From NCBI GenBank assembly GCA_018056705.1, contig JAGPFE010000010.1, forward strand, positions 1-64,000: a stretch of DNA of 64,000 nt. Reading direction: 5' to 3'. Below the pieces are notes generated by a model. That model was not told the DNA's origin and ran no database searches. It saw only the letters and a program-made list of their open reading frames with translations. The position numbers were made by a program, and so were the translations under genes. Below are positions 3,875 to 49,112 of this stretch, one piece after another. The first letter of the stretch is position 1, and each line of letters begins with the position of its first letter. Origin of the DNA: Candidatus Hydrogenedentota bacterium (GTDB taxonomy: Bacteria > Hydrogenedentota > Hydrogenedentia > Hydrogenedentales > CAITNO01).

Positions 3875-3952
<78 letters not shown>

Positions 3953-6763: not shown

Positions 6764-6839
6764 TGCCGGATAGCCAAATTGGTAAGGCGCCTGACTCTGG
6801 ATCAGGAGATTCTAGGTTCGAGTCCTAGTCCGGCAGCCA
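6764..6839 (+). tRNA. tRNA-Gln (anticodon CTG)
   Basis: Acceptor TGCCGGA pairs with TCCGGCA (6829-6835). The anticodon stem CCTGA/TCAGG holds loop CTCTGGA, giving CTG. The T-arm is intact and GCCA ends the gene. It is the first gene of a two-tRNA unit. Confidence 0.95.
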
Positions 6840-6877: not shown

Positions 6878-6952
6878 GGCCCGTTCATCTAGGGGTTAGG
6901 ATGCGGGATTCTCAGTCCCGTCACAGGGGTTCGAATCCCCTACGGGCTGCCA
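6878..6952 (+). tRNA. tRNA-Glu (anticodon CTC)
   Basis: Acceptor GGCCCGT pairs with ACGGGCT, with a G-U at the first position. The anticodon stem CGGGA/TCCCG encloses TTCTCAG, giving CTC. The gene ends in GCCA and is followed by a T-run (CATTTTTTATT) that may act in termination. It lies 38 nt after tRNA-Gln. The 140 nt that follow hold nothing else I recognise. Confidence 0.95.
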
Positions 6953-13955: not shown

Positions 13956-13985
13956 AAGATTTCTCGCTTCGCTCGAAATGACAAT
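13956..13985. repeat. Palindrome-derived dispersed repeat, half copy
   Basis: The stretch AAGATTTCTCGCTTCGCTCG followed by AAATGACA is nearly identical to the right half of the larger inverted-repeat element at 47897-47979. It sits between pyrR and lpxA, and I see no partner half nearby. Confidence 0.6.
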
Positions 13986-46928: not shown

Positions 46929-47699
46929 ATGAAGAAAGTAGTTTCCTACGTGTTGGTACTTGCTTTGGGCTTCGCGGGAGGCCTGGTTTTCGGGTTCACG
47001 TACGGGAAGAAAAGTGCCGAGGCGGACCTGCAACTGCGGACGGTGCAGCATGCCCGGACGGTTGACCTGAACAGGCTACCGGAGGCGCCGGCGCAGTCGG
47101 CGACGTCGTCCACGAAGGATAACGCGGAAAACGCTTCCGTTACCCCCACACCCCAGGGTACTGCTGCTGCCCCCGCTCCGGCCACCGCGGGAGAGGCAAC
47201 GGTATACGAAATTTCCGCCGATGATTCCGCCCTGGATTTCACCGGTTACAAGTCGGTGGCGGGGCAGAAAGTGGGGATGAACGGCTTTTTCGGCGCATTC
47301 AGCGGAACCGCGTCCCTGTCGGGGGATGACTTGTCTTCCTTGAAGTTCAAGGTGGAGGTCGACCTGGCCTCGGTGAACACGGAGAATGCCATCCTCACCG
47401 GTGTACTCAAGGGGGAAGCGTTCTTTAACATCGCGCAGTATCCCAAGGCCACGGTGGAATCGGTCCAGGTTCGGGCGGAGGGGGATCAGTACCTCGCCGA
47501 TGTGGCCTGGACCATGAAGGGCAAGACCGTGGGCTACCAGATCCCGCTGAAAGTGCAACTTAAAGGCAACGAGTTGCGCGCCACCGGCGAGGTGCTGGTT
47601 GACCGCAACCAGTGGAATATTGGCTACGCCGAATATGAAGGCGTGAGTATCCTTCCCGATGTCCGCGTAACACTGGACATAGTCGCGAAAAAGAAGTAA
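46929..47699 (+). CDS. YceI-family lipid-binding protein, N-terminally anchored
   Basis: A 256-residue protein. Residues 1-27 form a membrane anchor or signal (MKKVVSYVLVLALGFAGGL). Residues 30-95 are an Ala/Pro/Thr-rich linker, and residues about 97-256 are a YceI lipocalin-like barrel. The barrel includes DSALDFTGYKSVAGQKVGMN, VEVDLASVNTENAILTG, FFNIAQYPKATVES and DRNQWNIGYAEYEGVSI. Family members bind polyisoprenoid lipids in the periplasm. It is 21 bp after the exported oxidoreductase, with AAAGGA before the ATG, and is followed by a strong terminator. The apbE-oxidoreductase-yceI unit is therefore probably one transcript of envelope proteins. Confidence 0.9.
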   Translation: MKKVVSYVLVLALGFAGGLVFGFTYGKKSAEADLQLRTVQHARTVDLNRLPEAPAQSATSSTKDNAENASVTPTPQGTAAAPAPATAGEATVYEISADDSALDFTGYKSVAGQKVGMNGFFGAFSGTASLSGDDLSSLKFKVEVDLASVNTENAILTGVLKGEAFFNIAQYPKATVESVQVRAEGDQYLADVAWTMKGKTVGYQIPLKVQLKGNELRATGEVLVDRNQWNIGYAEYEGVSILPDVRVTLDIVAKKK

Positions 47700-47724
47700 C
47701 CCCCCTATCAAGGTAAGAATTTTT

Positions 47725-47776
47725 CGACCGGGGCATATACCCGATTAGCGCGGGTTGCCCCGGTCGATGTTTTTTT
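47725..47776 (+). terminator. Strong intrinsic terminator after the YceI gene
   Basis: CGACCGGGGC pairs perfectly with GCCCCGGTCG (10 bp). A nested ACCCG/CGGGT pair lies in the loop, and the hairpin is followed by ATG and then seven T. It closes the apbE-oxidoreductase-yceI unit. Confidence 0.85.
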
Positions 47777-47896
47777 CCGTGAAGGTCATTTCCCTGACTC
47801 CCGCATGCGTTGCCCTGAATGACAACTTTCCGGTCAGAATGAGACGGCTTCACTGGCAATGGGGGAAACTGAAACACCGAATGACCCGACAATGCC

Positions 47897-47979
47897 CTGT
47901 CATTTCGACGAACGAAGTGAGGAGAAATCTTGTTGGCGTATAGTGGCGAGAAGATTTCTCGCTCCGCTAGAAATGACAG
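47897..47979. repeat. 83-bp palindromic (MITE-like) element
   Basis: Perfect 10-bp terminal inverted repeats, CTGTCATTTC and GAAATGACAG, bound an inner inverted pair GAAATCTT / AAGATTTC around a short spacer. The whole transcript could fold into one long hairpin. The right arm is nearly identical to the 30-bp repeat at 13956-13985. It encodes no protein and sits in the 345-bp gap between the YceI terminator and the convergent aldo/keto reductase. The rest of that gap shows nothing recognisable. A REP/MITE-type element moved in trans is the likely explanation (inference). Confidence 0.7.
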
Positions 47980-48044
47980 TGCTTCGAGTGTGGAACCTGA
48001 CAAGACAGCATTACGTAACGGAAACCGCATTGACAAGGAAGTGT

Positions 48045-49112
48045 TTAGCCGACAGCCTGTTGGTTAAGCCGTTCCATTTCCTCCTGCACATCCCGGTGCC
48101 AGGCAGTCTTGTAGGTTTCATGTTTGCCGTCTTGGGCGTAAGGCTGGGTGCGGGCGAGCAAGGCCTCGCGTTCTTCCAGGGACATAGGCGTGAATTTCCG
48201 GGCAACCTCCAGGTTGTGTTCCAGCCACTCCGGGCGATTCATCCCGGAACAAACGGACGATACCGGTAAAGACATGGCATATCGCAGGCACTCGGCCGGC
48301 GTCAGGGCGCCGGTTTTCGGTAACGCGGCGGGAGTCCCCCCCATGGTTTTCATGGCGATCACGCCAATACCGCGTTTCAGGGCTTCAGGCAGGGTCTCCC
48401 GTTCGAAACTTCGGTAATGGTAATCAAACGCGTTGAGCGGAATCTGGATCGTTTCGAACGGGAACCCCCGTTCCAGCATCTGGTTGAGAAAGAGGGGGTA
48501 ATTGTGTCCCGTTACGCCAATGTGCCGGATTTTTCCTTCTTCTTTTGCCTTGATGAAGACGTCCAGAACGCCGTTTTCATACACGTTTGTCACGTCGGAA
48601 GGACGTACCACCTCGTGTACCTGCAGCAAATCAATTACGTCTACGTCCAGTCGACGCAGGCAGTCTTCCAGTTGACGTTGCGCGGTTTCCCGGTCACGGC
48701 CTACAACCTTGGTCATGAGGAAAACTTTATCCCGGTACCCATCTTTCAGGGCCCGGCCCATGCGCTCCTCGCTGCGTCCGTCATGGTATTTCCAGGCATT
48801 GTCGAAAAAATTGACGCCCTCGTCAATGGCCCGCCGCATCATGGAAATGGCCTCGTCATCGGTAAGGCTGGGATTACCGATGTGGTATCCCCCAAGGCAG
48901 AGAATGGATACCAGCGCGCCCGTTTTTCCGAGGGGTCTTCGGGGAATCGGATAAGACCGGTTTTCCAGTATGGGCGATGGTGTTCCCTTTTCGGTTGCTG
49001 TTTCACCAATGGTTTCAGCGGCGAACGATGTCTTTGTGGCCACGACTCCTCCGACCGCGGCCCAAACGGCACTTGAAATAAAATCCCGACGGTTCAACGA
49101 GCGAAGCTTCAT
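48045..49112 (-). CDS. TAT-exported aldo/keto reductase
   Basis: A 355-residue protein with a twin-arginine signal (LNRRDFISSA, then a hydrophobic stretch ending near SFAAE). The aldo/keto reductase barrel follows, with the catalytic tetrad visible: Asp in VNFFDNAWKYHDG, Tyr in the same stretch, Lys in VFLMTKVVG and His in LLQVHEV. The barrel closes with KFTPMS and a short helical tail. Substrates are probably sugars or other carbonyl compounds outside the cytoplasm (inference). AAAAGGA lies before the ATG. It is divergent from the GH99 gene across a 138-bp region with an inverted repeat. Confidence 0.9.
   Translation of the reverse strand: MKLRSLNRRDFISSAVWAAVGGVVATKTSFAAETIGETATEKGTPSPILENRSYPIPRRPLGKTGALVSILCLGGYHIGNPSLTDDEAISMMRRAIDEGVNFFDNAWKYHDGRSEERMGRALKDGYRDKVFLMTKVVGRDRETAQRQLEDCLRRLDVDVIDLLQVHEVVRPSDVTNVYENGVLDVFIKAKEEGKIRHIGVTGHNYPLFLNQMLERGFPFETIQIPLNAFDYHYRSFERETLPEALKRGIGVIAMKTMGGTPAALPKTGALTPAECLRYAMSLPVSSVCSGMNRPEWLEHNLEVARKFTPMSLEEREALLARTQPYAQDGKHETYKTAWHRDVQEEMERLNQQAVG

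Follow-up and report, generated by a model that had tools for sequence, protein, structure and literature searches.

The palindromic repeat at positions 47897–47979 of the window (the whole 64,000-nucleotide stretch that was analysed) is one copy of a high-copy dispersed heterodimer, composed of a left end, L, and a right end, s, in a fixed relative orientation. Both ends are conserved as hairpins of one DNA strand, in which blocks of G.A mismatches stay constant, the loop is mostly a GNA triloop and the stems covary. From this structure we infer, with moderate confidence, a non-autonomous, REPIN-like, two-ended element that would be moved in trans by an enzyme acting on single-stranded DNA, and not by a RAYT of this genome.

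The preliminary description had reported two nested pairs of inverted repeats at this site, and both were recovered without mismatch: an outer 10-bp pair, CTGTCATTTC and GAAATGACAG, at 47897–47906 and 47970–47979, and an inner pair, GAGAAATCTT and AAGATTTCTC, at 47922–47931 and 47951–47960. An inverted-repeat listing of the segment gave one repeat of 13 nt at 92% when extended, and another of 10 nt at 100%. The 83-bp hairpin unit that had also been described is an inverted pair, as stated, but not one palindrome: it consists of two non-identical units in inverted orientation, separated by a 21-bp spacer (47931–47951, no strand assigned), whose sequence varies among copies. For the window copy, the inverted pair does form one long hairpin; as single-stranded DNA, positions 47894–47982 gave −20.1 kcal/mol, versus −8.9 +/− 2.0 in 200 shuffles (z −5.47).

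All units share one anatomy. An unpaired TGTC tag precedes a stem of 5+2 or 5+1+2 bp, into which tandem GA/GA mismatch blocks are interposed, one or two per unit; a loop of 3 nt, mostly GNA, caps the stem, and CT forms the tail. The left unit of the window, L, is a perfect family copy of 33 nt on the forward strand (47898–47930), defined by its sequence and by the covariation among 19 distinct L sequences. Its 5' half reads TGTC (47898–47901), ATTTC (47902–47906), GA (47907–47908), C (47909), GA (47910–47911) and AC (47912–47913), followed by the loop GAA (47914–47916). The 3' half reads GT (47917–47918), GA (47919–47920), G (47921), GA (47922–47923) and GAAAT (47924–47928), and ends with the tail CT (47929–47930). 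The right unit, s, is 27 nt long and lies on the reverse strand (47952–47978); it is likewise defined by sequence and by covariation, here among 91 distinct s sequences. The family order of s is TGTC-ATTTC-GA-GC-GNA-GC-GA-GAAAT-CT. In the window copy, the 5' half runs from TGTC (47978–47975) through ATTTC, then TA (47969–47968) and GC, to the loop GGA (47965–47963), and the 3' half continues with GC, GA (47960–47959), GAAAT and the tail CT (47953–47952). This s is thus slightly decayed, by the one base that makes TA of the family GA in one mismatch block.

A near-identical piece had been noted at 13956–13985. It is a second copy indeed (13957–13983, reverse strand), but of one half only: a solitary right unit s, which is a perfect family copy. 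One pattern, written from the two window s copies with two positions degenerate, fits both with no mismatch, and gave no match in 100 shuffles at up to three mismatches. The solitary unit lies in a divergent intergenic gap, between genes for a phosphoribosyltransferase-domain protein and a UDP-GlcNAc O-acyltransferase-type protein. The L/s pair is flanked by convergent genes, one for a YceI-domain protein on its upstream side and one for an aldo/keto reductase downstream. Between the YceI gene and the pair there is a separate inverted repeat (47724–47767) followed by a T-run, which by its shape is probably the terminator of the YceI gene. The two window copies do not point to a restriction to terminator positions: one is in a divergent gap, and the other follows a terminator-shaped hairpin that is distinct from it. 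A terminator role of the window units themselves was rejected, the sole terminator-like site listed in 47600–48200 being at 48043–48069, outside the units. The window also holds three tRNA genes (3875–3949, 6764–6836 and 6878–6949).

The window belongs to a genome (hereafter G000) of 3.316 Mb in 120 contigs, 94% complete. A dispersed REP-like family had been expected, and the genome-wide search bore this out: at up to three mismatches, 113 short-unit and 95 long-unit matches were found, versus none in the backward control. A strict outer pattern had 180 matches, and BLAST with the L/s pair gave 110 at a loose E value of 10, the weakest of which are at chance level. A relaxed scan of 273.5 kb around the matches detected 219 sites. 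After 16 unclassifiable sites were left out, 203 units remained in these fetched parts, 110 s and 93 L, arranged in 81 groups. Single units made up 28 of the groups, whereas 26 contained at least three units, with a maximum of 12, so that clusters are common. Crude ORF calls of at least 120 aa, which possibly are not all genes, enclosed 21 of the 81 groups; the other 60 lay outside. By the same kind of crude calls, the gaps that carry units were divergent in 17 cases, convergent in 7 and tandem in 28. The excess of divergent over convergent gaps is unlike the published REP pattern.

The orientation of neighbouring units in G000 (up to 300 bp apart) followed a strict rule. Neighbouring L and s were opposite in all 87 cases, 51 with the tags outward and 36 with the tags inward, whereas s-s neighbours (22/22) and L-L neighbours (9/9) always had the same orientation. 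Each group therefore has a single polarity. The largest neighbour class was tags-out (51 of 118 pairs, the remainder being 36 tags-in and 31 same-orientation pairs). Spacers of the tags-out pairs measured 20–28 bp in 27 of 51 and fell outside this range in 24; 38 were no longer than 38 bp. They comprised several unrelated sequence types. At other loci, tags-out was the arrangement of 43 of the 59 pairs of neighbours no more than 80 bp apart, 22 pairs that had been fetched as dimers being left out of this count. With the same exclusion, the outer stem differed between the partners in 26 of the 43 tags-out pairs, which makes the hairpin of the single unit a more general feature than the long hairpin of the pair. 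At about 40.4 kb of contig C70 of G000 (locus L168, about 1900–1990), several tandem copies of the left edge of s stand just upstream of an s unit: TGTCATTTC has filler resembling CATCCCCAC after it, which looks like repeated copying of the tag and the first half stem only.

The tag and the GA blocks are close to invariant. TGTC was found in 189 of the 203 units and CGTC in two, by a detecting pattern that held TGTC and allowed substitutions. Among 144 distinct strict sites, the T, G, T and C of the tag were kept in 141, 141, 142 and 144, respectively, and after the hairpin C, T and T stood in 144, 140 and 135; bases beyond the unit edges were mixed. In G000, 106 of the 110 s units had undamaged GA blocks, as did 85 of the 93 L units, the pattern again holding part of the blocks with substitutions allowed. 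Among units with Watson-Crick stems, GA/GA was present in 138 of 141 viral ones, 77 of 78 from relatives and named genomes, and 85 of 88 from G000. A search that left the GA positions free is cleaner, because many of the other loci were fetched with GA-fixed patterns. It counted 113 matches in five of 68 genomes; of the 82 matches listed, 80 were GA/GA, and the two exceptions were one TA/GA and one AA/GA.

Conversely, when the stems were left free in phage contigs, with the pattern fixed at the tag, at AT and GA and at the loop's G and A, all five free positions were pairable, G-T allowed, in 77 of 93 distinct sites (47 sequence types). Covariation was then measured against 500 shuffles. For the 91 s sequences, 93.9% of cells were paired, and double-change cells numbered 143, versus 49.8 +/− 6.6 in shuffles, none of which was as high; the values were far lower when the pairing partners were slid. 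For the 19 L sequences, 97.4% were paired and the score was 0.596, versus 0.282 in shuffles, with none of 500 as high. Two of the five measures were not clearly apart from shuffles for either unit: the number of pairs with a double change (395/500 shuffles as high for s, 46/500 for L) and the number of pair types (70/500 and 500/500). As the stem pairs covary and the GA blocks stay almost constant, what is conserved is a hairpin of one particular strand; judged from the sequence, C-T mismatches would replace the G.A blocks on the opposite strand.

The triloops of the 110 s units of G000 were GAA in 64, GCA in 39, GTA in three and GGA in one, the middle base varying and the G and A mostly persisting. 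The loop was other than GNA in three of 110 s and seven of 93 L units. At viral loci, where the pattern fixed the G and the A, the triloops were GAA (38), GCA (29), GGA (17) and GTA (9). An AAC triloop was seen in four of the 93 L-type units of G000 (contigs C61 and C113) and in three of nine L-type units with other stems in phage contigs (viral loci L299 and L317); it may be a second permitted loop. AT/AT at the start of the stem was constant in both the s and the L alignments, the search patterns having required it. Sheared tandem G.A pairs in DNA follow the rule Py-GA-Pu. In the s alignment, 84 of the 85 sequences that pair just 5' of the first GA have a pyrimidine at that position, which fits this rule. 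The commonest s apex was GC-GNA-GC.

By nearest-neighbour energies, the single units were no more than modestly stable. A single s gave −1.9 kcal/mol as DNA (z +0.37) and −4.1 as RNA, the latter also with no z-score signal, and the lowest-energy fold of L was a different helix, TCATTTCG/CGAAGTGA. This alternative helix was rejected, as it showed no covariation (score 0.163, 160/500 shuffles as high). The energy models may not credit the G.A/GNA motif fully.

Searches at the level of the order and of the phylum returned an identical set of 68 genomes. The strict pattern, with its TTC stem, occurred in ten of them and the general short formula in 17. G000 had the most strict-pattern copies and another genome, G045, the most general-formula units (108). 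In three genomes (G003, G019 and G042; loci L098, L103 and L109), longer partner units of the type GA-GG-GA-GC-ATAA-GC-GA-CC-GA and similar sit 15 bp from s, as other ends for the same right unit. A genome of the same genus, G016, had no unit by either pattern. At two sites, orthologous gaps of G016 lacked units, with lengths of 146 versus 525 nt and 328 versus 774 nt; the intergenic sequences could not be aligned, being too diverged to define an exact empty site. The G016 ortholog of the window site ends at a contig end. These unit-free gaps are compatible with copies having been gained or lost one site at a time, but they show no clean junction.

Twenty-two stretches, belonging to four metagenome-assembled genomes (MAGs) of three other lineages, carried the same L+s dimer, identical but for the spacer and the middle base of the loop. 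Nineteen were contigs of one Desulfatirhabdium MAG and one a contig of a second; the remaining two were contigs of 492 kb (Rhodothermales) and 117 kb (Chloroflexi). The hosts were named from record titles, with lineages checked for the first two, and are subject to possible errors of MAG binning. In IMG/VR contigs, the short formula also had at least 120 matching stretches, and the TTC form four. General-formula units are frequent in tailed-phage contigs (loci L277–L393), amid structural genes, and capsid, portal and protease genes were among the 110 ORFs covered, of 246 that neighbour units in viral contigs. A special link to phage head genes was nevertheless rejected, because portal, head and terminase families were about as frequent in 110 control ORFs taken from the same contigs at a distance of 1.2 kb or more (top 25 families). 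A search with the window dimer, taken as 88 bp, against 72,556 plasmids and 50,697 named phages gave no match (E 0.01).

The preliminary description had proposed mobilisation by a RAYT-type transposase, and the search for such an enzyme did not support this for G000. If a Y1 enzyme moved the units as it moves GTAG REPs, its gene would here have been lost or would lie in an assembly gap, and this we regard as unlikely. Several observations speak for it: the units have the anatomy of REPs and REPINs; Y1 genes (PF01797) are common in the order, being present in 54 of the 68 genomes; they occur in 13 of the 17 unit-bearing genomes, including G045, with its 108 units and three Y1 matches; and G000, 94% complete in 120 contigs, has several unit groups near contig ends. 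However, PF01797 had no match in G000, the genome with the most strict-pattern copies, nor in the unit-bearing G003, G044, G055 and Rhodothermales MAG, not all of which are complete; G016 had none either. Among the other dimer-bearing MAGs, one Desulfatirhabdium gave a single marginal hit, the other two weak hits, and the Chloroflexi six. Unit presence and Y1 were unrelated over the 68 genomes (13/17 unit-bearing versus 41/51 other genomes, Fisher p 0.74). Moreover, no unit of the general formula was found at any of 39 Y1 loci, scanned over about 1.5 kb on each side and less at contig ends. Sixteen of these loci were in unit-bearing genomes, seven of 30 from the 68-genome set and nine of nine from the dimer-bearing named MAGs. 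Three matches in a first scan of the 30 loci were of chance type, obtained with a looser formula tied to one stem. Finally, the tag is TGTC and not GTAG.

Other candidates fared no better. The Y2/IS91 family (PF04986) was present in three of the 68 genomes, G000 not being one of them, and 14 control genomes gave no match. Neighbouring ORFs were covered for G000 (143), the named MAGs (42) and the viral contigs (110 of 246). Neither a transposase nor another dedicated gene adjoining the units was seen among the best 25 of the 214, 114 and 53 Pfam families, respectively, that they matched. Phage integrase accounted for two of the 110 viral ORFs (best 25 of 53 families), and DUF1559/N-methylation proteins for three of the 143 ORFs of G000. 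Together with the single order that represents the phylum among the genomes searched, these proteins hint, as a guess, at a host of planctomycete-like or Hydrogenedentota-like affinity. No parent transposon of the L/s element was found.

GNA and tandem GA motifs occur in RNA too, and the units could instead act as RNA, to stabilise mRNA, as attenuators or as sites of processing, each kept by selection where it lies rather than being mobile DNA. We hold this to be improbable. It would accord with the 60 of 81 groups outside the ORF calls, with RNA energies somewhat stronger than those of DNA, and with a loop-closing T-G in ten of the 91 s sequences. On the other hand, unit gaps were divergent more often than convergent (17 versus 7, with 28 tandem), one divergent case being in the window. 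Stem departures, summed over three sets, were G-T in 23 cases, A-C in 17 and others in 27; as G-T was not clearly preferred over A-C, they lend no support to an RNA role. No terminator-type site overlapped the window units, which also had no Rfam match at the gathering score, and the same L/s pairs recur across phyla with different spacers. Passive spread alone, by homologous recombination, slippage or gene conversion among copies, fits the constant-polarity arrays and repeated spacers, as tandem duplication would produce them, but it is very improbable, since it leaves unexplained the single dimers at unrelated places, the sharp unit edges, the several unrelated spacer types and the same L/s pair in other phyla.

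The favoured reading, of an element moved in trans, is best set against the known REP families. The CGTC-tagged REPs, as the text of Di Nocera et al. 2013 (PMC3733652) describes them, have an unpaired tag that may be TGTC, form dimers that are mostly tags-outward and often heterodimers, occur in five phyla, and apparently have no dedicated transposase, none adjoining them. Their stems begin with A-T pairs; in the L/s alignments these pairs were constant, under search patterns that required them. The L/s units are like the CGTC-tagged REPs in being short palindromes with an unpaired TGTC tag, in forming tags-outward dimers that are often heterodimers, and in having no transposase found nearby. 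They differ from that description in the stem (5+2 or 5+1+2 bp with GA blocks and a loop of 3, versus 8–9 bp and loops of 4–5 nt), in the tail (CT(T) and not CCA) and in clusters, which are common here and rare there. These distinctions refer to the textual description, and Figure 2 of PMC3733652 may draw some such units. We file the L/s element as a variant related to the CGTC-tagged REP superfamily that works like a REP or REPIN. In the open literature searched, neither a G.A/GNA rule for such repeats nor, judged by title, a paper related to the unit sequences was found.

RAYT-moved REPINs, or BIMEs, of GTAG REPs resemble the L/s element in their two inverted units, conserved stem mismatches (AA-GC in E. 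coli), strand-specific recognition of single-stranded DNA and CT at the hairpin foot. In contrast, the L/s units have no GTAG (or GTGG) foot and carry a G.A/G.A block instead of AA-GC; no RAYT gene was found in G000, and none of the 39 Y1 loci has a unit beside it. MITEs are likewise short, non-coding and dispersed, with inverted ends, but the ends of the L/s element are one-strand hairpins and no parent transposon came to light. The d(GCGNAGC) mini-hairpin, known as an in vitro structure, follows the GNA rule. The commonest s apex is alike, except that it is here the conserved apex of a repeat family. Extra-stable hairpins with CGCGAAGCG are described in PMC10527192. According to Table 1 of PMC2817692, some enterobacterial REPs have a GC-GNA-GC apex, among them GTAG REPs of Cronobacter (Enterobacter sakazakii) and Citrobacter. 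This suggests that the mini-hairpin is common to both REP superfamilies.

The mechanism that we propose would start when the tagged strand is single, in replication, in phage or plasmid passage or in DNA uptake, which would allow the hairpins to form. A trans-acting single-strand nuclease/strand-transferase would recognise the tag together with the G.A blocks and the triloop, join the L end with the s end and cut near the CT at the hairpin foot, and copies would re-insert after cutting. Arrays would grow by tandem duplication, their polarity thereby being kept. The closest experimental parallel is TnpA-REP. According to PMC8266576, the E. coli enzyme needs a conserved AA-GC bulge, its activity being eliminated when a regular stem is restored, and the S. 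maltophilia and Marinomonas enzymes cut at CT, which is named as the common cleavage site. The G.A block may take the role of the bulge that the E. coli enzyme requires.

A broader and more tentative reading, possible but less than likely, is that the G.A blocks, GNA triloop and TGTC tag are the recognition code of a class of non-RAYT single-strand DNA-processing enzymes, which would move L/s elements in four or more lineages of bacteria and whose elements would also be carried by tailed phages. Di Nocera et al. (PMC3733652) left open what moves the CGTC-tagged REPs, and they dropped repeats with more than one mismatch unless dimeric. Repeat surveys that discard mismatched stems can miss families such as this one. 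The candidate recognised features are now precise, with tag, tandem G.A blocks and GNA loop near-constant and stem pairs covarying. The L/s family also offers two ends that can be told apart and keep a fixed polarity, a genome that is rich in copies and gave no Y1 match, and counterparts of the pair in other phyla. All this puts the hunt for the enzyme, and a cleavage test on oligonucleotides, on a concrete footing.
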